Positions 5,250 to 48,990 of a stretch of DNA of 64,000 bases are shown here, in pieces (within the stretch, counting starts at the first letter, position 1; the number at the start of each line of letters is the position of its first letter). A program made the position numbers and the translations under genes. Where the stretch lies: assembly GCA_037042915.1 (NCBI GenBank), contig CM073199.1, forward strand, positions 310,001 through 374,000. Direction: 5' to 3'. The notes beneath the pieces were generated by a model. The model was not told where the DNA came from, did no database searches, and was given only the letters and a program-made list of their open reading frames with translations. This DNA comes from Auricularia sp. M13. Its lineage: Eukaryota > Basidiomycota > Agaricomycetes > Auriculariales > Auriculariaceae.

Positions 5250-5732
5250 GGTGAAATCAAATCTGGGTGCCGCCTACAGTGTTCGCAGACTCCGAACTGC
5301 AGATACCCTCTTGTTCTGCTGCTATGATGAATGAGCCTGCACCGACCACAGCAGGGCTTCTAAATCTACGCTACCTACTATGCCAGGATCTATCTACCTG
5401 ACCCTGCGGCACCTGCGCCTGCAGTGTCTCCAAAGGGAACCGTGATTCCGTCGTACCAGCTTCTAGTGCTTGTGATACTCGTCCTGGCGCTGAGGGCATT
5501 AGTCAGCTTTATGGCTCTGAGAATGTTTCGGCCGTTTGGGCACGAGCCAGTTGCACTGTAAAACTTTGTATACGGAATCTGAAGAGCGGCCAAGCTTATG
5601 AAATTCCCACCCCTACTGTGCCTTGACTTGACAAAATTTCACAACATACGGGCACCTGCTCCTAGGTTGTAACAAAACAAAAAATTTGGCAAAGAAAACT
5701 TGGTAACAATCCGTGTAGGAAACAACCTAACA
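5250..5732. other. No gene recognised
   Basis: Intergenic stretch between the phosphatase pseudogene and the tRNA gene, with no supported feature. Confidence 0.4.
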
Positions 5733-5811
5733 TGACAGCTGCAGGACTCGAACCTGCGCCCTTTCGGACCGCGGCCTTAACACGGCGCCTTAACCACTCG
5801 GCCAAACTGCC
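5733..5811 (-). tRNA. tRNA-Leu (anticodon AAG)
   Basis: Read on the minus strand, the sequence folds into a complete cloverleaf. The acceptor stem is GGCAGTT paired with AGCTGTC (two G-U pairs) with discriminator A. The D stem is GCC/GGC and the D loop is typical. The anticodon stem is CCGTG/CGCGG around loop TTAAGGC, giving anticodon AAG for Leu CUU codons. The T arm is GCAGG-TTCGAGT-CCTGC. The 11-base variable region with a short GAAA-capped stem fits a class II Leu tRNA, though it is a little short. A box (TGGCCGAGTGG) and B box (GGTTCGAGTCC) are canonical. It has 79 bases and no intron. Confidence 0.95.
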
Positions 5812-8337
5812 ATAGGAAGATGAGCGTTCCCGCGTTTACTCACCCATGTGCCTCCGATACTGCACTTCGCAAAGCGTTCTGTAGGTCAATATAGGTCAGA
5901 AATCAATCCGCATCTTTATACAAATTGTGGGAAGGCCTCAGCAGCCAAAATGTACACAGAATTCAATATCAGGACCAATCTCTCAACTCTCAGACTCAAG
6001 GGCAGGCATCTTGGAGGTCAAACCCTGCAGAATTCGGGCTAAATGGTGCACTCGAGCGTACCGCCTGTGAAGTGCCGCACAGTACCCATGCTGCTTCAGG
6101 TGCTAGTAATTCTTCAGCCCGCGTCGAGCTATTTTCACAGTAGCGAGCTTTCTCGGCGACGTCCATTGACAAGGCCGCGTCTTATCTGCGTCGAAGCAGA
6201 CTGAGTCACCGTATCTAATCAATGTCCCTGGCGAGATCTCATCTCGAGACCGGCGAACTCTGCCAATGCGGCGTCTGCCAGAACGCCACGGTATCTGTCA
6301 GTGTCTGCTGTTGATGGAGTATCGCGGAGCAGCTGTCTGACAAGTACTGCAGACGGGCGTACATAGGCTATCTCAATCTGATTCTCGGTCCCGGCTCTGT
6401 CATAACCTGCTGGACGTTGGACGTTGAACGTTGAACGCCGGATCACATGGCGATATGCCACATTTCCAGTTGCCGCGGAGCGCCTGGCAGGGTGTCAATC
6501 GCGTTCCGCGCGCGACGCGAGGCGCCTCGAGCTCAATACCCGTGCCCCCTGAAGGATGCAGAACATCATTAGTCTCAGCGGCACTCCAGGCAGGGACGTC
6601 TCATATCTGAGCCTGAGCCTGATTCCAGGGTCGCGCAGCTCGTCGCCGCGTGAGGCTCGCAGAACTGTCCGAGGCTAATTGCTGGTCAGATCGGTAGGCT
6701 GGGAGACCGACCGTGACGCGCAGAGTCGTAATGTTTCGGCAGAAGTCGACATTCGAGATGCAGCCGGCCGCGGGGAACCAGTAACTTAGAAGCGCCGACC
6801 TTCGTTCGAGTATGAAGCAAAGCTGGGTCATGCGGCCGTGGCGAAGAGCGCACTGACCGCTGGCTCTGAGCATCATGCGATGACAGCCTCAGAGTAAGAA
6901 ACTGCGTGACATCATCAAGCAACGCGGCGAGAGCATGGCGACTCTCGCACGCATCGTGTTTCCCTGGAACGGTCAGGATGGGCGCATCGATGCGAGTGGG
7001 ATCTCCCGAGATAGGTATAGGCACGAAGCGGGCCAGTCCACGTAACGGTCGATCCGATCGTGGGCCAAACATGGCAGATGAATCCGGCTGCCAGGCCGGG
7101 ATTGGGCATGGGAGAGACAACGACAATGCATCGCCTCGATGCCGCGGTCTGGGGCATCGCCGCGGAATCAGCAGGTTGTTTGTCCCTTGCTGCATTGTCG
7201 AGACAGGAGGAAGGCGACGGAGTGAGGATATTGATGGCCATGGGGAGAATGGGGAGGGGGGATCCCGCAGGCTTGTATGATGTTTAACGGAGGTGCGAGT
7301 CGCCGCCGCGGAGAGACGCCAAACCCCACGGCGCCGGACACAATGGGCTGCCAGTGAATTGCCAGGAAGTATTACAACGCGAGATAGCACGATGTTTGCC
7401 GCAGCGGGTCGGTCATCTGTCCTCAGGGCAGGAGCGCTGGCGTCCCGGAAGACCCAATGGCGGGCGTGGCAGAAAGTCACCGGTGCAGAATAAACGTTGG
7501 CGGCCGAGCCACAGCCCGTCGTTCAGGAGCCGCGCCATCGATATACGGGGGAAGACGCCGCGGAGCGGGGGGTAGGCGCGCAGAAAACGCGGCGAGGGCG
7601 TGGCAGAGCGCGTCACGGGGTGATCGGCGCGCGCAGGGCGAGCGAATGGCTGGCGGTTCCCCCCACCCCCGCGTTTCTCCAGAACAGAACAGAATGCACA
7701 CGCAGTCAGCGGTCAGAGAAAACGCAAACTTCAGAGGGCCCCCGCAGCCCAGTGGGGCAAGATGCCGGGCGCGGGCCGCCTGTGATGCAATTTGTCCCGC
7801 GCGCCCAAGGTGTCCATTGTGTCACCGCGGGCGAGTGGAGATTTTTTTTCCTTTTCGCGCAGGACGGAAATCGATGGCCTGTTGAGGAAGAACAATAGGA
7901 GCTCTGCGGAAGATCCTTGCCGTGCCCTGGCGCATCATATCAGATCGGGATGGAACTGCACGCGGGGGCAATAAGATGGACAATACGTAACGTGTAGTGT
8001 TGCCGCGTGTCGCCGGCTGGGACGGTAATACATTCCGTGCGGGGCGCCAGGGCTGCTTTGCATTGCGGGCAAGGGAGATTGCAGCGAGGAAATAGTCTGT
8101 AAAATCTTTGAGGATGGAGAGAAAACAACGAGCGGCGGAGACCCAGCATTCCGCGTGGGCATGGTGATGGCCGGTGATGAGAATTTTCGTTGTGCCGGAC
8201 TCCGCGGTGCGCCCGGACTGGCTCCGCGGCAGGTCCCCACGTGAACGCGGGAGCACTGGGGGCAGGCAGGGCTGGGACACGCAGGACGAGTGTTTCTGGC
8301 GCCATAGGCTCCCACGCGGCCAGGCTTCCCGCGAGGA
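5812..8337. other. No gene recognised
   Basis: A long GC-rich stretch with many overlapping open frames on both strands, the longest on the minus strand at 6686-7480. None shows a domain, a repeat of another gene in the window or convincing splice signals. The length of the frames is explained by the scarcity of stop codons in GC-rich sequence. Confidence 0.45.
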
Positions 8338-37675: not shown

Positions 37676-39141
37676 TCAAGGAGAATAGAGAGGTGGCACA
37701 GTGTTGCGCTGCTCAGCCGGGTCGAGAGGCGGCGAGCTCAGTTTCTCTCGCGGGACTGTGACCGGGCGAGAAGCAGCGCCTGGGGACCATCCTGCATTAG
37801 GCGTGGAGGGGCTCTCCCCAGTCACTGATGACGGTACGTGCGAGCCAGGCTCGAAAGGATTCCTTGTGGTCGCGTAGGTCGACGCCCCAAGCAGGTCACT
37901 CGGCGTGAAAGGGCCGAACTGTATGGCTGTAGGTTGCGCCCCTGCGAGCGAATAGGCATTCGTGGGCTGAGCGCGGCTTGAGCCACCACCGTAGAAGACG
38001 GACGGCGGTGCGCCGGGCAGTTGCGTGTGCGCCTGTCGTCTGGCAGCGCGGCGACGAAGAAACCAGAAGAAGATCGCTACGATAGCAAGCCCGGCCACAA
38101 TGGGTATCAAAACCGCCAGAGCGACGGCGGTTTGGGTCGATAATCCGCCCTCACGTTTGATGGGTGGTCTGTCGGCATTGTTATCGCCTGGACTGGCAAA
38201 TGTCCCGCTAGCCGAGCGGACCGTCAGTGTCTGCGAAGAAACACAGCGTAGTCCAGACTGACGAAGAGGACTGAGTGGAACAAACGGGAATTGTGGAAGG
38301 GTCTGTCGCAGTCGCCGCAGTTTCATCACTGCTAAGAAGGGCGATGGCGTCGTCAGCTAACATCGCGGGAGGATTGGAGAGAGCGCACGTATAATAAACA
38401 AGGTAATCAAGGAGGACGAACGATTTGGGTTGAAGTGTCATGGTCAGCGCGTGGGAGCCACTGTTGAGGCCGAGCTTGGTAAAGAACGGAACATTGAATT
38501 GGTAATCTGTCACAGTCGCATCTGGCGTATATTCGTAACCGCCCTGCTGGACATCGTCAAGCGTGAAAGTGAGGTTCACGTTCTTGATGATAGGGCGCTC
38601 GCTAGTGCCGTTAACTGTGATGCCATAGACCATCACACCAATCCCTAGATGGGGGTATATATACATAAGTTGCATCATCCCAGCCTGCCGAAAGCTACGC
38701 ACCTTGGAACGTATACGACATGGTAACGGGTGCCCCGTCTGACTGACGCGCAGCATCATGCCATGTGCCGTCGTTGATAAACTGCATCTGCTCGAGGTTG
38801 GGTACGGCGCTGCAGCCGGGGCAGCTCCCGGAAGCCTGCCAGTTACCGGTGTAGTCCAAGTCCAGATCGTCGACCTTCACACTTTGCGTCTGAGCATATA
38901 GTTAATCGCGAACTGTCCGCTGGCCGCTCTGCAGGCTCACCATCGTCTCGGTCTTGTTCCGTTTCTCTGGGCCTGGCCGAGCAAATGCAGAACACCCAGG
39001 AGCCAGAGACGGAGAATGTTGCTGCGAGATGAGCTGATAGCGGACACAGATCCTTTTAAGACCTGATAGCAAATAGCATCCAGCCACAACCGAGCGTTCG
39101 GCAGTGAAGAAGGCCGAACATGAATGCAAACATATTGCCAT
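37676..39141 (-). CDS. Type I membrane protein with beta-sandwich-like ectodomain
   Basis: The exon ACG-CAA-AGT... begins after a CTCAG acceptor and encodes VKVDDLDLDYTGNWQASG and NDGTWHDAARQSDGAPVTM. After intron GTGCGT...ATCTAG come IGVMVYGITVNGT and FVLLDYLVYYT. A further intron precedes SDETAATATDPSTIP, and another precedes TLTVRSASGTFASPG. The TM helix is AVALAVLIPIVAGLAIVAIFFWFL, followed by RRRAARRQ and a Ser/Pro-rich cytosolic tail ending PPLYSP. This domain order is common in basidiomycete membrane proteins of unknown, possibly sensory, function. The first exon is unclear: an ATG at 39141 is in phase but lacks a signal peptide, while a signal-like stretch (LRLWLLGVLHLLGQA) lies in another frame. 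Confidence 0.6.
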
Positions 39142-39767: not shown

Positions 39768-40267
39768 TCAAGCAGAGTAGGGGGGAGGGAGATCGAGAGA
39801 AGACAGGCCCAACTTCTCTCTCTTAGCCGCGAGAGGGATGGGACGGGGCGGTGGTGCGGGGAGTTGCGTGTCCGTTTCTGACTGTCGGCTTGCAGCTCGT
39901 CGAGCGCGCACGCGCGCGCGGAGATTCCAGATCGTCAACAGAGCGGTCATTGCCAGGATTGGTATCAGAACTGCCAGAGCGATCCTGGTTCCGGTAGACA
40001 ATCCGGCACCGCGTGTGCTCATCTCCCTGTCAGCGGGGGTATCTGTGCTGGGACTTGTCCCACTGAAACAGTTGAGTCGTGAGTGAGTATGAGAGATAGG
40101 AGAAGCCAGACTGACGAAGCCGGTGATGCTGACGGAATGCGAATTGTTGTATGCTCGCTGGAGATTGCAACATTTGTTTGCGAAGAAAATTCACCACCAC
40201 GTGTGATAGTCACGTTGTCGGCGGGGGAATCGCCGCTAGGGATCGTCCTGCTGGGCCGCTCAGATCG
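39768..40267 (-). pseudogene. 3' half of a transposon-split ectodomain/TM gene
   Basis: The distal part encodes a TM helix and tail (LSTGTRIALAVLIPILAMTALLTIW, then RARVRARRAASRQ and DLPPPYSA) that match the intact paralogue at 37676-39141. The part nearest the transposon (40267 downwards) aligns with the paralogue just after its last intron. The missing 5' half lies at 48324-48990 on the far side of the Plavaka element, on the same strand and in the right order. A partial second copy of the juxtamembrane segment is also present (around 40083-40230), so this half was also internally duplicated. Confidence 0.75.
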
Positions 40268-40269
40268 TA

Positions 40270-40300
40270 CTTCTGTAAAAGCCGATCTGCTCCGGAGCCG
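40270..40300 (+). repeat. Plavaka element, left terminal inverted repeat
   Basis: About 30 bp starting CTTCTGTAAAA, matching the inverted right end at 48290-48321 with a few mismatches and one gap. Confidence 0.8.
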
Positions 40301-40489
40301 GTATTAGCCGATCCGGGCGCTGCTGTTCTCTGGCTCTTGCCAGTGGCCGTCAGAGCGGCCGGAGCAGCAGAGCGTCGGCCTGCTCGCAACCGAGTCCCGT
40401 TGCTTTGGGCTCAAATATTCCGCAATATGAGCACATATAGACTCAATACTACCAGTACTGGCGATGTCGGTGCAACGACGAAGTGAGCA

Positions 40490-43400
40490 TTACAGCAACG
40501 ACCTAAACATCGGTTTATCTGCCTGGTGACTAACCCAAAACTCGCCCTTCCAGTCCTCCAAGACGTTTTCGGCTGTCAGCTCTCGAGGGATTGCAGGTGT
40601 ATCGCGACCAAGCTTCGGGGCAAGGAACGCGCTACGGCGTATGTCGACGGCCTCGATAACCGATACGGATCGTATCCTCTCAGCGCCGCGGCCTCGCGCA
40701 AGCACCATTTCCGCGGACACCTTGAACATCCCAGAATCGGGATCCCGCCTGCCTAGTTTCGTGAACCACTGTACAAACGCAAGCTTTCCCGGCAGCTCGA
40801 TCCTTGCGGCGGCGAGGTAATTCTTGATTTCTGGCGGAAGCTCGAAAAGCGCGCGAAGGTGCGCGACGCGAAGTCCTTCGAGCTTGGTCAGAAACTGACT
40901 GCAAACGAACAGTGCCTGCTCACCTTCCGTCCCGCCTTCGCCGGCAAGCTCCCCGCCCTCCTTCACGAAGACGGGAGAGAATTGTGCATGCAGGAAGGCG
41001 TCCTCGTCACCCACGTCGAGATCTGCACGGAGTCGCGGCGGTACTGCGTATGCAACATCCCGTGTGTCTTTGGCCGCGACGGTCTGAAGATCTGGTGTGT
41101 AGAACTTCATCTTGTGCCAGACTGGGAACCGAATGAAGTTGCTGATATACGGAACATCAGGCGGAGTACCGTTGCGACCACTGCTCGCCCATTCCGACGC
41201 AATGTAGTTGCCAAGGAATAGACGGAGTGCATCTTCAATGCCACATGCGCGGTGAAGGCGCTCGAGCTCGCGCAGCGTACGCTGCGCCGCCGGCTTCTTC
41301 GCGTATTCGATTGCTTCGTGTTGACGCATATCGATACGCTTTCGAGCATCGTAGGACGCGCCATCGAGGTGGGCAATCGAATGCCCCATGTAGTCCATTT
41401 GTTCTTGCCTGATTAGCCATTCGCACACCTGCTTTGGATACTGCGTCTTCTTTTTATTCGATGCCCTGTATCCATTCTTGAGGTCGTCGATGTGGAGGCG
41501 CTCGCCGATGTCGGTACTGACTGGGGTCAGCGCGCCGAAGAGCTTGATGGACGGGATGAAGTGCTGGAGCATGTGAAGTTTTGGGAACGCCAGGTCTGCG
41601 GTCGTTGTTAGTCGAGGCAGCACAGTGGACTACACTGCGAACGCACTTGGGCATGCACCAAGCTCCACGAACACGGCCTTGTTCTCATGAAAGCGGTTGA
41701 GGACTTGCTGAGCATCGGCAAGTGTATCGTCCGAGTGTGTTTCGTACTGCACCATGAAGGTAAAGTTGAGCAAGGCGCTCATTGCGCGGATGAAGCGTTT
41801 GTCGACATTGGCAGAGGCCATCGCGGCCAGCAGCTGCTTCGAGATCGCCCTATGCTCGGTGCCCGAAACGCGCTGCAGGCATGATATGCCGTCGTCGAAG
41901 TGCCGCAGGCCGTGCATCCGCATTAAGCGTGCCATCCGCGCGTCAAGCTCATCGTCGCCGAGCAAGGCTCTACACCATGCGGTAAGGTGCTTGACAAGGC
42001 CTTGGTATAGTTGGTGCAGTATGTCCGTGTCCCAAAAATCGCAAATCGGTGATCAGCGATTATGCTCTTATCAGAGCTCTATGTATCGTGATACATGCCT
42101 ATATGCACCTATGAGATGCCTTAAGCGCCTATAAGACCTGGTAAGTACTGATAACTCGTCAATGTGGAGTGATAAGCGGTGACCGGCGCTGATCAAGGCC
42201 TGATCAGAGCTCTGCGGCCTGGGATAAGGCCTCATCAGAGGTGATCAACCCTCACCAGCAACAAGTACCCCCAGTACCTGTTCACTCAAGTCCCAGCTAC
42301 TGAGAGCTCAGGCCAGTCATGAGATGGTGCTTGGGGGGCCTCCAGGAGGAAGGGGAGCCGCGGTTCAATGGAGCGGAGGTCCGGTGGAGCGGTGGAGCGG
42401 GCATGTATACTTTGCTCCACCCTTACAGACAATTGGCGTAATAGCCTAGCTGGTAGCTCGCGCCAGGGTGCGTGTGGCCATCAGGCAAGCCGTTGGTTCA
42501 AATCCAGGCTAAGTTAGAAAATATACAAGTCATGTACAACCTGGAGTAAGTCTAGAAAATGTACCCTAGTTAGTAATACCAGTAAGTAGTAAATGTACAA
42601 CTGTAAATACAGAAAGTAAGACCCAGCTGCCGCATAGGAGCGGTAGCTGGGGGAGTTTTCGTAATATCGGGCTGGGCGGCTGATCAGCTCTTATCCGCCT
42701 TGTCCGCATTATAAACTTGTATAGGCCTTGTCAGCCGTATAATAGGCCTATAAGCGAGTATACCCCCTGAAGCTGTTTGATCAGGTAGGGGGTCGGCTGA
42801 CCCTGTTATCAGGACTCATCACACTTGGTCAATCCTCATAGCCAACTTGCACTTTTTGGGACACGGCGCGATGGCCTCGTGCACGTTGACGTGTGCCCAG
42901 TCCTTCCAGAAGGGCTCAAGGATGTAATTGAGACCGTGGTTCTTGAGGTAGCGCTCAGCTGCAGCGACAGAGCCCAGTTTTGCGGCGTGGCGGACGTGTC
43001 GAAGTGTTTCTTCAGGAGACCGCGGTTGACCGACTTTGTTCTTGGCGAAGTCGCTCTTCTTGATGTCGCACTTGGGACACGCCCGGCATCCTGTGTGCAG
43101 GCACTGCTCGGGATAGTCAAGGCCTTCCATAGCAAGGATAGGGTACCCTTCGTATACATCGCCATTCGCAGATGTGAACTCCATCCCGGAATGCGAAGCT
43201 TCACGAAGCGGTTCAAAGACGACGCGCATGGCCTTGTGAATGATCCGATGCGCTAGTTCGCGCTGCTTGGACTTGGAAAGCCCCAGGCCTTTCAGGTTCA
43301 CGACGGGAAGTAGAGCGGTAAGGGCATGGGTGCGACTCGAGACATCGCGCAGCAAGCTGCTATCGATTGAAGAAATCGTCGTATACAGCGGGTACGCCAT

Positions 43401-44436
43401 GTTGCTCTCAACACCGATGAGCTGGCACAGCTGCGTCTTATCCTGGAACGTCGTGACAGGCACGACCGTCGCGCCACGTGGTAGCTGACCCTATAGTATC
43501 ATCAGGTTTAGATGCTGGGCAACCTGGCATATAACGCACCTGGACCCGCCACATCCACTGCCCAGTATTGAAGTTGTTGTAGAGCCGTACGGTACGGGAT
43601 TCGTCGGTGTACAGCTGCTCGGGTTTAAGAGCGATTCGGCCCTGTACGTTATAGCGGCTCCAAAGATCCTGTAGCACCAGGCGTGAGTTGCGGTACAGCA
43701 ATGGAAAACGACGCTTCAGGCCAGGCACTGTGATGTTGGTCTTCATCCACGGTGCCTGGCAGGGAATCTTGGCCATTATAGCTTTGAGGGCACGGGCCGT
43801 TGTGTAAGAAAGCTGAAGCGCCTCCCGAACCTGTCCAGCGTCAGATATTAAAAAAGTAAACGAGGTCTTGGTGCGTACACTCTTCTTCTTCATCAGTCGT
43901 TCAAACGCGCTGCTGCTGATGGATTCAGCAGTCAGCCAGTCGGCGAAGTCGTAATCCAACTCGTTCTTGAAGGGATAAAACTTAGAGCCTGACTGCGCAC
44001 GCGCCGCTTCGAAGCTTGCATGGGGAGGTCGAGCGCGCCGAATGCGTTGCCCAGCGGACTCGTAGATGACGCGAACGGGCTCGGTGAATTCTGCGGCCTG
44101 GATGGTGTCCAAATGAGCCATATGCTGGGCGTCATCGTCGTCGTCATTGTCAGCTCGTGCATCTGCTGCGTTGTCGTCGCCAGGTGCCCTCCATTCTTCG
44201 TCAACATCCATCCACTCATCTTGATCTTCAAGGTTATCGACCTCTGGAGGAGGCATGGGCTGCCGATTTGGATGCAGCTGGCCGCGATGCACGAGTGCGC
44301 GCAACGCTTGATGGTCCGCATCCCTTGACCTCGAAATATGGCGCTTGAGGTCACCTTCTGAGCGATACGGCCCATTCCCGCAAAGGCGACAGAAATGTGA
44401 AGCAGTAGAGCGGCGCGCCTGTAGGGCCTTAGCCAT
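40490..44436 (-). CDS. Plavaka-type transposase, interrupted by a nested element
   Basis: Start ATG 44436 (MAKALQARRSTASHF) leads into a C2H2-like finger (CRLCGNGPYRSEGDLKRHIS). An acidic linker and the conserved core follow. An intron at 43539-43491 joins WRVQ to GQLPRGATVVPV; then come QLCQLIGVESNMAYPLY, HTGCRACPKC and FWKDWAHVNVHEAIAP. Here the 836-bp element (42028-42863) intervenes. The protein would continue DILHQLYQGLVKHLTAWC, ERLHIDDLKNGYRASNKK and the C-terminal WKGEFWVSHQADK. A further intron lies near 41643-41593. Without the nested element the frame is open and has the usual Plavaka layout, a DDE-type enzyme cutting at the element ends. As it stands, the gene is inactive. Confidence 0.85.
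42028..42863. mobile_element. Nested 836-bp non-autonomous element inside the transposase gene
   Basis: The ends are inverted: TGTCCCAAAAATCGCAAAT at the left and the inverse of TGTCCCAAAAAGTGCAAGT at the right. It is flanked by CG on both sides (42026-42027 and 42864-42865). Removing the element and one CG restores the transposase codons exactly (I-A-P|D-I-L), which fixes the borders to within a base. Subterminal zones are rich in CTGATCAG, CTTATCAG and CCTGATAAGG-like motifs. It has no transposase gene. The superfamily is undetermined: the CG could be a 2-bp duplication, or no duplication if the repeat is read as GTGTCCC. Confidence 0.8.
42443..42506 (+). other. tRNA-like pol III promoter (A and B boxes), SINE-like
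   Basis: TAGCCTAGCTGG (42443-42454) fits the A-box consensus and GGTTCAAATCC (42496-42506) is a perfect B box 41 bp further on. No complete cloverleaf forms around them and the 3' part continues into unrelated sequence, so this is not a functional tRNA gene. It may be a tRNA-derived SINE head carried inside the nested element at 42028-42863. The 3' end of such a SINE is not clear. Confidence 0.55.
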
Positions 44437-44634
44437 CGGGTGTGCGGTGGTAGAGCAAGTACGAGACAGAGTCCGAATTTGCCTCGCTGTATGCCGACGG
44501 GTCAGTGTAAGCTGCAACCACTGTATACAAAATATTTCATGCAATGCAGGTGGGTTTAGGCTTTTGAAAATGTGCAGATAATGGCGAAGAGAACTATGTT
44601 ATATTATTCGTAGTTGAGCCTGTTGAGGTACATT

Positions 44635-45288
44635 CTACGGCCGGATCCTCTGGCGCTTCTTCGGGCGTTCCACCTGCTCATGGTTCACAACCTGCGGCTG
44701 GACAACCTGTTCTGAGAGTCTCAGAATGGCAAAATCAACTTCTATTTCAAAAGTCATACCATGTCTTTTGTCGGGGAGGACGGCAACATAATCTCAAGGT
44801 CCGAAGGCTCAGTTTCCGTGAAAGAAGTCTCACGCTTGAAGACAGAGGCAACGGTGCGGTTTGTATAGCGCTGTGTGACAGTGTTGATTGCTCGAGCCGA
44901 CGTTTTGTGGGTGCGGTGGACGAGGTCCCGGATGCGAGCATATGTTTGCTCCAAGAGGGCCTGCAAAGATTCAGTGGTAACTAGCGAGCCTGAGGGCTGC
45001 TCAAATTGAAGTTGAATTGTCTAATTATAATTATAATTTCTTAGATTACTTGCAGCTTTGGCGCAGATTCGACATACCGTGGAACCGTCGTTGTTGCGCC
45101 TTTGTGCGAAGCTCTTGACGTGAGGTGAAGAAGGCAGAGAGCAGGATATGAGCTGCCCGTGGAATGTGATAGACAGGGCCGGATTTTGTGGCATCTGCGT
45201 CGTGGACGGCGGTCTTCCAGGAGGCAACGTCCGAGTCACGGTCGATGAAGAAGTCGGACTTTGCGTTGGCCCCACGCGGCGGATACAT
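44635..45288 (-). CDS. Small accessory gene of the Plavaka element, unknown function
   Basis: From ATG 45288 the frame reads MYPPRGANAKSDFFIDRDSD and HIPRAAHILLSAFFTSRQE. A second exon encodes ESLQALLEQTYARIRDLVHR...TVASVFKRETSFTETEPSDLE. An intron with donor GTATGA (phase 0) then leads to a C-terminal exon PQVVNHEQVERPKKRQRIRP with a basic, NLS-like tail. The first intron (around 45050-45000) could not be phased, so the model is provisional. It starts 90 bp from the divergent DUF6532 gene, suggesting a shared promoter. The domain is not recognised. A role in transposition or regulation of the element would be a guess. Confidence 0.45.
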
Positions 45289-45378
45289 CCAACTTTCGAG
45301 AATTTGATCCCCGCTGTCCTCTCTTTTTTTCACTCCACCAACTACTCCAGACGTATACGCAACCCTCAAGGTTTACCC

Positions 45379-47280
45379 ATGGCTATGACCAGGCGTAGTA
45401 CAGCATCGGGCAGGACGTCGTCCGGACAAGAGGAGATTGTCCATGTTCCGGTCAAAAGGGTCCCCAAAAATCGTCGTTTTGCTCGAGTCAAGCAGCGCGA
45501 CGTTGCATCCAAAATCCGTGTCGTTTCTTCTTCCAAAGTTGCCCGTAAACGTACTGCTCTGCACTAGCTCTTCTACATCCTTGCTAACTGCAACACAGGC
45601 GCACAGCTACGACGTAATCGCAGGTTTGGTATGTTTGCCACACTTTTCTTGTTTCTCGCTGCTGAGTCCACCCTACTTCATTTTTTGAAGACGACAACAG
45701 CGACGTTGGATCATCCCGCGGGGAAGCGTCCGATGCTGACGTCGAGCTCGAAACACCGCACGGTTCGCCCAACAATCACCAGCGTGCTGTGTCGCCTGCC
45801 CTATCAGGTGTGTCACAGCTGTACCAAGTTGAATAATGATCACAAACTGCACGGACGCACTAGGTGGAAGCGCGTCTGACACGGAGCAGGAGCAAGAGCG
45901 CAGGCAAGCAAGCAGGCAGCGTCGGATTGAGCACCAGGTAGGCATTTGACACGACTGGGCGACACTGATGCGCTTGCAGATACTTGTGGGCTCCTCGGCG
46001 CCGCTCTCACAAACACATGGTCGCTCTCGCCCACGTACTCCGAGCAACCGACCACGAACTCCATCACCACGACCTGACGCCCAGCCTGCAGTTGTCAACT
46101 GCACCCCGTACAAGCCTATATACGACCCCAAGAAGCGCGACGAGACACTGGAGCAAGGATATTCCCCACTCAGTCGTAGGGTTGTTCGAGCTTTGAAAGG
46201 ACCATTCAAGGCGTACGTGGCAACCGAGCGCGGATTTTTTACGCAGCAGGAGGCAGACGATTACCTAACTCCGCTCCTTGACGAGCTCCTACGCCAAGGA
46301 GCAGCAGGTGACAAGAACCGCATTGCTCGCAAAGCCGACGGGATCTACTTCCCCAACATCCTCCGCCACGTGTGTTTCCCTTTACGCCAGGTGCTTTTGC
46401 TGACGCTGCTTCTGGCTAGGTTCGTGCGACGGCCAGCAAGCTACGCAATCACGTTATCACGGTTGCACGGCCCATCGTCAAAGTCCAATACGAGCTCGTG
46501 ACGCGCAAGCCGCCGCACGCCCCCGAGGATGAGACACAGCGTGCAGGCAGGGTCAAGGACTTGCTGACCGACTTCAAGTTTGCGGCCTTGGATACCGAGA
46601 CGGTGCGTCAACATTCGTGTCGCAGATTCGAGCTGAACGTGTTCAGGGCATTGGAATGTTCGAGCATCCTGCACTGCATGAAGTCATCGCAGCTGCATTC
46701 TTCCGGTCAGCAGCCCCGACCTTCAACCTTGGCGCCGACGAGCGCTACGTCGACAAATTCAAGCCGTACCCCAACGCGCTGATCGTACTGGGGGCCACTG
46801 CAGTTCGTGGTTATTCCTGCTACACAGCGCCCGCTAACTGAGCTACATGCAGGTGTTTGCAGCTCTGTCTGAGTGGATAACGGGCTCGTTCGTGAAGGGC
46901 AAATTCGAAGGCCGCAAATACGACGATGTTTTCGAAACGATGTTGGACATGCTCAAAGGCATAACAGCTGGGCGAGAGGAAGCCGAGGAGTTCGACAAGA
47001 AGCGGGGAGACTGGTATATGGATGCATGGTACGTCTGTTGATCTATTCTTCAGCCGTGGTGCTCAGTTCTGGCAGGCTTCACACACCGTTGGTTGCAGTG
47101 GCGCACAACAGCACGAATCGCGACGCCATCGTGATGCGGAACCGCGCAGCCCTGCGAGCAGCCCGGCAGCGTGCCGCAAACGACAGCGAGATGCGCGATA
47201 GCGAGGGCAACGGCGAGGGGAGCGGCGATGGCAGCGGCGATGGCAATGGCGTGGGCGGTGACGAATTCGATGGCTTCTGA
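45379..47280 (+). CDS. DUF6532-domain protein carried by the Plavaka element
   Basis: A multi-exon gene from ATG 45379 (MAMTRRSTASGRTSS). Early exons encode a basic segment (PVKRVPKNRRFARVKQR) and an acidic/Ser segment (DDNSDVGSSRGEASDADVEL). Later ones give SPLSRRVVRALKGPFKAYVA, then LLTDFKFAALDTET, FEHPALHEVIAAAFFRS, NALIVLGATA|VFAALSEWITGSF and FDKKRGDWYMDAW. The last exon ends in a Gly/Ser/Asp repeat (GEGSGDGSGDGNGVGGDEF) at 47280. The GT-AG introns I could check rejoin in phase. The pattern FEHP..V....F followed by ALVL.A...A..EW is that of DUF6532, a basidiomycete domain of unknown function. It lies fully inside the transposon ends and looks intact. Confidence 0.75.
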
Positions 47281-47328
47281 CGGGTCAAGGTCCCTAGTAT
47301 CGTATTGACCACGCTAATAGACGTTGTT

Positions 47329-48077
47329 AGGCCCCCGGCTTATCCTATGAGAGGTCCGATCTGGCCGGGGTCCCGTTTGGGGGGCGGAAAACCGCTCTCA
47401 AGGGCCAATTTGGGGGGCGGAAGATCCAACATCGGAGATTGCCGAATGCTTTCCCATGGTTCAGAATTGTGCTGGCTGGGCCGGGAAAAAGATCCCAAAG
47501 CATAAATCGGCCTAGGCAGGTGTCATATTAGCATAGGACTGTTGAACATCTTTATTTGAGTGCTAAAGTCCTTGATTCCGCCTTGATTCACAGATACTTG
47601 AGCATCCTTCCCTGGAGCTATCAGCGATATCGGGCCTTTAAGCAAACAAAGGCTACGAAGCTGTGAAGAGAGCATGACAAGACATAGATCGGGTGTATCC
47701 CGATGCTAGAGAGTTGCCATGGACATCAAATTGCGACAACATACAGTAGCAACCAGTGTCAATATGCTGCTGCCAGTATGGTCCTCAGGTGCATAGAGAG
47801 CTGCAAGTAAGGACAGAGCTAGAAGATGATATTTGTAGCAAATGCAGTTGATGGTGAAGGGAATGGCCAATGTTCAGCTACTCATGGCTCATCGGGTCCC
47901 AGGATGCCAGGCCATCTGCGACCATGGCCGTCTGGAGGATGATTTGGGGGCGGGAAGATCTGAGCTCGGCGCTGCGCACCGGCCATCTGGGGGCGGGAGG
48001 ATGGGAGGTGCGCCCTCTGCGAGGGCGCAATGTGGGGGGCGGAGGATTGGACCTATATTGGGATAAGCCGGGGGCCT
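47329..48077. mobile_element. hAT-type MITE inserted in the Plavaka element
   Basis: 749 bp with long inverted ends: AGGCCCCCGGCTTATCC at the left and its inverse at the right, with similarity extending to about 33 bp. A perfect 8-bp target duplication ACGTTGTT (47321-47328 and 48078-48085) marks a hAT-like insertion. Subterminal direct motifs TGGGGGGCGGAAGAT-like occur at least five times (for example near 47377, 47411, 47943, 48031), again in mirrored arrangement. It has no transposase gene. It lies 48 bp after the stop of the DUF6532 gene and is younger than the Plavaka insertion. Confidence 0.92.
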
Positions 48078-48289
48078 ACGTTGTTCTGCGCCCATCGTTC
48101 CGTGTGACGCGTGAGCTGAGACCTGAAAATGCAATATACATGGCCGAGGCAGACGCCTAATCAGCACTGGCCAGAGCAAATCGCTGACTCCAGCGGGCTC
48201 TAGCATTCTCCAGGTCGCGCCAGAGCAGACATGGGTTGCTCCAGAGTAGGGGTTTATCTTCGGCGCTCTGCCGCTCCGGAGCAGGCAGA

Positions 48290-48321
48290 GTGCGCCAGAG
48301 CAGATTCCGATTTTACAGAAG
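48290..48321 (-). repeat. Plavaka element, right terminal inverted repeat
   Basis: Inverse of CTTCTGTAAAATCGGAATC and following bases. It pairs with the left end at 40270-40300 and is followed by TA. Confidence 0.8.
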
Positions 48322-48323
48322 TA

Positions 48324-48990
48324 AGCGCCAGGGAGGAAACGCAACATACAGTTCGACTGACGATGAGGATGGAGAGGGAAAAATGAGAATTCTGGGAGGT
48401 TCCTTCGCATTTGCAGCAATTTCTTCCCTAAAGTCGATGAAAGCATTATCGGTTAAAATCACTCCAGAAGGTCCCGAGAGTCAAGATGACGTACTTGTAA
48501 TAAATAAGATAATCGAGGAGGACAAACGAGTGTGGTTGGAGCGCCATCGTCAGTGTGTGGGGGCCGTTGTTAAGACCAGTCTTGGTGAAGAACGGAACAT
48601 TGAGATGGTAATCTGTCACTGTATTGTTGGGCGCATATTGGTAGACGCCCTCCTGGGCATCGTCGATCGAGAAGGCCAGGTCAACATTTTTTATGTAAGG
48701 TCGGTCGGTAGTGCCATTGATAGTGATGCCATATACCACAACGCCGGTCCCTAAGTGAGAGCAGAAGTATACATATCATGATCCTGGCCTGCAAAAAACT
48801 ACACACCTTCAAAACTATACGACATGCTGACTGGTGCCCCGTCCGCCTGGCGTGAAGCATCATGCCAGGTGCCATCGTTGACGAATTTCAATTGCTCTCG
48901 GTTGGGCACAGCCGAGCAGCTAACACAGTGACCAGACACATCCCAGTTACCAGAGTAGGTCAGTTCTGTGTCATCGACATTCACACTTCG
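48324..48990 (-). pseudogene. 5' half of a transposon-split ectodomain/TM gene
   Basis: After a GGCTTAG acceptor the exon encodes SVNVDDTELTYSGNWDVSG, AVPNREQLKFVNDGTWHDAS and QADGAPVSMSYSFEG. After an intron (donor GTGTGT) comes VGVVVYGITINGT, then TVTDYHLNVPFFTKTGLN and FVLLDYLIYY. This matches the ectodomain of the paralogue at 37676-39141 almost residue for residue. The sequence stops matching at 48323, exactly where the Plavaka element begins; the TM helix and tail are found at 39768-40267. The first exon is unclear here too. It is a host gene inactivated by insertion. Confidence 0.75.

Follow-up and report, generated by a model that had tools for sequence, protein, structure and literature searches.

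A Plavaka transposon between the halves of a membrane-protein gene in Auricularia sp. M13, and the DUF6532 gene that accompanies its transposase

A 64,000-nucleotide stretch of the Auricularia sp. M13 genome (hereafter the window; C7:310001-374000, in a genome of 52.1 Mb and 14 contigs) holds an 8-kb Plavaka transposon between the two halves of a gene for a single-pass membrane protein. The transposon belongs to a family in which the transposase gene is paired with a divergently transcribed gene encoding the domain of unknown function DUF6532.

The split gene and its insertion site

The two halves, an intact neighbouring paralogue and both copies of the target-site duplication (TSD) lie at the following window positions (TM, transmembrane segment; ORF, open reading frame).
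37676..39141, minus strand: intact paralogue (ectodomain, linker, TM, tail), the yardstick of the alignments; one exon is 70% identical to the broken copy.
39768..40267, minus strand: 3' part of the broken gene, from the end of linker unit 1 through linker unit 2 and the last intron to TM and tail, placed by alignments.
39768-40190, minus strand: ORF within the 3' half, with a hydrophobic stretch seen by eye.
About 40007..40188, minus strand: tandem copy of the linker, unit 2, from self-alignment of the joined flanks with controls.
48442-48324 plus 40269-40195, minus strand: linker unit 1, interrupted by the insertion, from the same self-alignment.
40268..40269, unstranded: TA, left copy of the TSD, by flank inspection.
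48322..48323, unstranded: TA, right copy of the TSD, by flank inspection.
48324..48990, minus strand: 5' part of the broken gene, with the exons of the ectodomain and the first part of the linker, placed by alignments, reading frames and substitution rates.

A first-pass annotation of this DNA had proposed that the two halves are one gene, meeting at a TA that is duplicated at both ends of the element, and alignment of the flanks with the paralogue bears this out. The right flank reached a local score of 604 and the left flank one of 132, compared to shuffle maxima of 43 and 42, respectively (n = 100). Read along the gene strand, the match of the right flank to the paralogue reaches base 975 (1-based, in the stretch 39200-37400) and finishes at the last base of the flank. 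A single TA then lies opposite paralogue bases 976-977 (T against G, a mismatch; A against A, a match), and the left flank resumes without a gap. We therefore regard it as supported, and take it as confirmed, that the 8.05-kb Plavaka element split one gene with one 2-bp target duplication.

The proposed division into an ectodomain half and a TM/tail half also stood, with the addition that the left half holds a repeat of a linker segment of about 180 bp. The score at which units 1 and 2 align was reached by none of 500 shuffles and by none of 244 other pieces of the window. Unit 2 has an intron of its own, 71 bp long by eye, which runs in frame to the TM exon; the other copy has no intron borders and reads open. 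If this hand reading is right, intron sequence would have become coding sequence in one copy of the linker. The joined edges had further been placed near the last 3' splice site of the paralogue. They do align gap-free; the insertion itself is most likely located within coding sequence, namely the linker exon, because unit 1 does not have GT and AG where the last intron of the paralogue begins and ends (by eye) and the reading frame is open from the linker exon across the joined site into unit 2.

The broken copy shows 0 stops over 143 aligned ectodomain codons. Over these codons its nonsynonymous (dN) and synonymous (dS) divergence from the window paralogue is 0.193 and 1.18, and from a copy on C3 0.243 and 1.24, while the two intact copies differ from each other by dN 0.237 and dS 1.14. 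Since no stop occurs and dN/dS is not above that between the intact copies, there is no sign of decay, and the gene was probably coding, under ordinary purifying selection, until the insertion. At present the linker exon reads into the element, where, after three leucines, it meets a TAA stop at 48315-48313 inside the right terminal repeat. As read from its sequence, the gene is now truncated ahead of its membrane anchor, with the terminal repeat providing the stop codon; the broken allele, if expressed, would yield an anchorless ectodomain ending Leu-Leu-Leu-stop.

A genome-wide search with one ectodomain exon (E up to 10) gave six matches, namely the broken copy, its neighbour (70%), C3:1179474 (71%), C10:1153099 (47%) and two weak ones. 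Among these six, no uninterrupted copy with different breakpoints was found. The neighbouring paralogue is uninterrupted and the C3 copy is likewise free of the element in the corresponding linker region; the C3 linker is longer and too diverged for placement of the breakpoint.

The element, its ends and its nested insertions

The element and its contents were located as follows.
40270..48321, unstranded: Plavaka element, 8052 bp, termini CTTCTGTAAAA..TTTTACAGAAG, with exact ends and TSD.
40270..40280, plus strand: left terminal inverted repeat, exact 11 bp.
48311..48321, minus strand: right terminal inverted repeat, exact 11 bp, containing the stop codon of the broken gene.
40490..44436, minus strand: Plavaka transposase gene in exons, interrupted by a nested element; PF18759 matches, and a finger-like CxxC..H..H near the N-terminus by eye.
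42028..42863, unstranded: nested miniature element, 836 bp, termini TGTCCCAAAAA, TSD CG.
45950-47280, plus strand: ORF blocks of the DUF6532 gene, from the ORF list and profile matches.
46399..46960 (C7:356399-356960), plus strand: DUF6532 (PF20149) domain of this second gene, exon by exon, by profile match.
47329..48077, unstranded: second nested miniature element, 749 bp, termini AGGCCCCCGGCTTATCC, 8-bp TSD ACGTTGTT.

The assignment to Plavaka was upheld by the transposase profile, the terminal inverted repeats and the 2-bp TSD. Among ten ORFs scanned, PF18759 scored 162 and 52.3 bits on two (cut-off 26.3) and 21.1 bits, below the cut-off, on a third. In the ORF 42819-43490, CPKC (C(2)C) and HVNVH (H(3)H) were recognised by eye; the catalytic D, D and E are unplaced. 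Searches of viral-contig and other genome-contig collections confirmed no relatives of the transposase.

The terminal repeats CTTCTGTAAAA and TTTTACAGAAG match exactly over 11 bp, and their recurrence in the genome is mostly that of paired element ends, not of the ordinary dispersed repeats that would have spoken against the split gene. TACTTCTGTAAAA occurs at 15 places in the 52 Mb (control 3), 14 of which form 7 convergent pairs 1.1-22 kb apart. The exact 11-mer CTTCTGTAAAA occurs at 113 places versus 28 for the reversed control, so that roughly 28 of them could be chance matches; among the 100 of these matches listed, at least 36 convergent pairs within 25 kb were counted by us, 7 of them TA pairs, and TSDs were tested for part of this longer list. 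For the test itself we allowed one mismatch in CTTCTGTAAAATC, which gave 106 places versus 29 for the reversed control. From the 100 of these listed, convergent neighbours within 25 kb were taken, TA pairs excluded, yielding 14 pairs not chosen on flank sequence. Equal flanking dinucleotides were present in 13 of the 14 pairs, and equal 3-bp flanks in none.

The family TSD is 2 bp long and of mixed sequence, with TA favoured and not required. A strict TA target was rejected, as the 13 matching pairs duplicate AC, TG, TC, TT, CT, CA, AA, GC or AT; absence of any TA preference was rejected as well, as TA precedes 15 of the 113 CTTCTGTAAAA places and makes up a fraction of only 0.033 of the window dinucleotides. 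The many paired ends with duplications would imply past mobility of the family.

Some relatives are considerably longer or differ in content. The 22-kb relative on C4 holds a reverse-transcriptase/endonuclease ORF, and the 6.5-kb relative on C11 has ORFs that appear DIRS-like by eye. We rejected the idea that long relatives are cargo carriers because these contents point to nested elements, which explain part of the length. For the 14.9-kb C1 element, three ORFs were searched against Pfam and gave no match. The CTTCTGTAAAA element C2:467711-480192 contains an insert of about 8.3 kb bordered by CTACAT on both sides, which encodes a GCR1_C/NDC10_II protein, presumably Crypton-like, and a GEN1-like XPG nuclease. 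The GEN1_C profile matches 5 places genome-wide, including an inverted pair at C8:3126742 and C8:3129751.

The first-pass description of a clean split holds for the insertion and not for the element, which is itself broken by a nested insertion. The 836-bp miniature element interrupts the transposase gene. Its terminus TGTCCCAAAAA occurs at 74 genome places versus 14 for the control. Of the eleven pairs in which both ends were excised as loci, ten carry identical 2-bp flanks and none identical 3-bp flanks; in the remaining pair, 19 kb apart, the ends are unlike each other. The closest copy compared (7 loci tried, 6 usable) is 96% identical. Because C1:1456695-1462969, whose TGTCCCAAAAA ends resemble those of the 836-bp element, encloses both a transposase match and a DUF6532 match, the nested 836-bp element probably derives, in miniature form, from a Plavaka lineage other than that of its host element. 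Inspection by eye also showed in it a tRNA-like stretch that has a B-box-like GGTTCAAATCC around position 42495 and that neither ARAGORN nor Rfam calls; a tRNA-Leu (AAG) at 5732-5812 is the sole window match at Rfam gathering scores and the sole ARAGORN call. The ends of the 749-bp inverted-repeat element gave 32 matches genome-wide at up to one mismatch (control 0), with some end pairs about 0.4 kb and others about 0.75 kb apart. The nested insertions may have come before or after the move into the gene. With its own transposase gene interrupted, the window copy could be supplied with transposase in trans by relatives elsewhere.

A DUF6532 gene paired with the transposase

At least 87 PF18759 and at least 41 PF20149 profile matches were found in the genome, both counts being lower bounds. 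Merging matches within 3 kb resulted in 49 transposase loci and 25 DUF6532 loci. Transposase loci were termed strong when their scores summed to 160 bits or more (25 loci) and weak below 100 bits (24 loci). A DUF6532 locus lies within 10 kb of 22 of the 25 strong loci, where chance would give about 2%, and within 10 kb of none of the 24 weak ones. At one further strong locus (C1:1153192-1168060) the DUF6532 match is 11.3 kb away, between the same pair of ends, bringing the count to 23 of 25. All 23 pairs are divergent, i.e., head to head.

Among the end matches listed, every element with both ends located and a transposase match (8 of 8) also holds DUF6532.
CTTCTGTAAAA-ended elements with both genes: C1 1.15M, C2 5.09M, C3 382k, C6 909k, C7 (window), C10 3.04M and C11 1.10M.
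TGTCCCAAAAA-ended element with both genes: C1 1.46M.

The DUF6532 match is located 568-711 bp from the adjoining CTTCTGTAAAA end in eight elements: the seven two-ended ones and C5 206k, for which the CTTCTGTAAAA end beside DUF6532 was located and the other end was not found. For the window element, this distance was taken after subtracting, by hand, the 749 bp of the nested element and the 8 bp of its duplication. Full members of the CTTCTGTAAAA family carry two divergent genes, transposase and DUF6532. In nine elements compared, identity ranges from 33 to 68% for the transposase and from 18 to 52% for DUF6532 (at least 30 columns). The distances of the two proteins correlate with r = 0.485, a value reached by 34 of 5000 permutations (35 of 36 pairs; one with 3 columns was dropped). 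These values suggest that the pairing is old and that the partners have at least partly co-diverged.

Several elements carry GCTCNNGAGC palindromes below their ends. The subterminal motif CTCNNGAG occurs 16 times in twelve 300-bp ends, versus an expectation of 1.0 from shuffling single bases, a control that does not preserve dinucleotides.

From its genomic arrangement, DUF6532 is most likely the second transposition protein of Plavaka. By analogy with TNPA of En/Spm, it would most simply act as a binder of the subterminal repeats. A wider proposal is that a large part of Plavaka depends on DUF6532 as an obligate second protein of transposition, ancient and co-diverging with the transposase, that most fungal DUF6532 genes are transposon genes, and that Plavaka works with two proteins as En/Spm does, the partner being an unrelated one; this we put forward tentatively, as falling just short of probable. 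Several observations weigh against DUF6532 as the second transposition protein. Two strong transposase loci are unpaired, and so are two of the 25 DUF6532 loci, C7:2594906 and C11:1368784, which are candidates for remnants or for genes kept by the host. CTCNNGAG, missing at both ends of the 9-kb C3 element and at one end of the 12-kb C2 element, is not a universal binding site. Searches of solved structures with DUF6532 gave no convincing link to DNA binding: the best match was a weak one, 1q8c MG027 (E 0.0031 and 0.019), which we take to be a NusB-like protein and treat as a lead only. An NCBIfam search for DUF6532 returned two single-member weak matches only, with unrelated names.

Alternatively, Plavaka could carry DUF6532 as a passenger gene that acts outside transposition, e.g., in escape from silencing, and that is not TNPA-like. 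The missing structural link to DNA-binding proteins fits such a role, and other fungal transposons are known to carry accessory genes such as TET/JBP, for which escape from silencing has been proposed (PMC12730594). In our element, none of the ten scanned ORFs matched TET/JBP in Pfam, a scan that was not exhaustive. A dispensable passenger would be expected to be lost more often, whereas DUF6532 accompanies nearly all strong loci even with transposase identity as low as 33%, and does so always head to head and at a narrow distance from the adjoining end. We consider the passenger role a serious possibility, if rather short of probable.

Alternative explanations and comparison with known systems

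Taken as a whole, it is very probable that a Plavaka element of a two-gene family, with transposase and DUF6532, inserted into a functional gene for a single-pass membrane protein, in its linker exon, and duplicated TA. The 8-kb element would have arrived by cut-and-paste movement. Some points count against this account. The 85 bases of the left edge alone are a weak match to the paralogue, equalled by 3 of 500 shuffles, and the left-side evidence is therefore carried by the exact position and not by the score; against the C3 copy, the left edge gave no sensible alignment. The C3 382k pair, the one exception among the 14 tested pairs, has no equal dinucleotide although it holds both genes. Exon borders were set by eye throughout, from sequence alone, and the insertion site was compared within this single genome.

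That the gene was already a pseudogene before the element landed is unlikely. Unit 1 does lack splice borders at the places that match the last intron of the paralogue, and part of the gene is duplicated internally, but the exon frames read open and the dN/dS values do not exceed the one between the two intact copies. The presence of a second linker segment in the left half would also allow this half to be the 3' end of another copy of the gene, such that remnants of two different truncated paralogues flank the element by chance and no single gene was split. Such a coincidence is very improbable given the gap-free line-up of the flanks around one TA, the open frame across the joined site and the duplicated target dinucleotide. 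Finally, ectopic recombination between two Plavaka copies could draw on many related ends in the genome, and the excess of TA next to such ends would make a shared TA commoner among recombined copies than 1 in 16, but recombination would not be expected to unite matching halves of one gene as seen in the alignment, and we give this origin hardly any weight.

The insertion into the linker exon is in itself an ordinary transposon disruption, if a well documented case, and the DUF6532 pairing matters more. It indicates what a fungal domain listed only as being of unknown function probably does, helps to recognise full Plavaka elements and turns what Plavaka needs for movement into a two-gene question. 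In the open literature mentioning Plavaka, including PMC9674265, DUF6532 was not found named as a Plavaka gene, subscription papers and supplements being outside this scope. One list of additional domains from two Ganoderma species names both DUF6532 and Plavaka without linking them (PMC8955403, in the part concerned).

According to the main text of PMC12730594, Plavaka is characterised by CxxC and HxxxH motifs; PlavakaA has termini TGT..ACA and a 2-bp TSD, and PlavakaB has termini CATCA..TGATG. The window element resembles Plavaka as described there in its PF18759 transposase, the CxxC and HxxxH motifs seen by eye, its terminal inverted repeats and its 2-bp TSD; of the 2-3 bp allowed for Plavaka, the family shows 2 bp (13 of 14 pairs) and never 3 bp. 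Its termini, CTTCTGT..ACAGAAG as fixed by the duplications, agree with neither PlavakaA nor PlavakaB and would represent a new terminus type relative to these descriptions. Unlike the described Plavaka, it has a DUF6532 gene in divergent orientation; the name DUF6532 does not occur in that main text. The TGTCCCAAAAA elements have PlavakaA-like termini; they share the 2-bp TSD with the window element (10 of 11 pairs) and differ from it in terminal sequence, one miniature member residing inside its transposase gene.

En/Spm requires two proteins, TNPD and TNPA, the latter binding to subterminal repeats (PMC2613891, in the passages used here). Similar to this CACTA element as described there, the Plavaka family combines a transposase with a second element-encoded protein, subterminal repeated motifs in several members and short derivatives. 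It differs from En/Spm and the EnSpm/CACTA elements in that CAC termini and the CACTA terminus are absent, the target duplication is 2 bp instead of 3 bp, and the partner protein is encoded by a separate, divergent gene.

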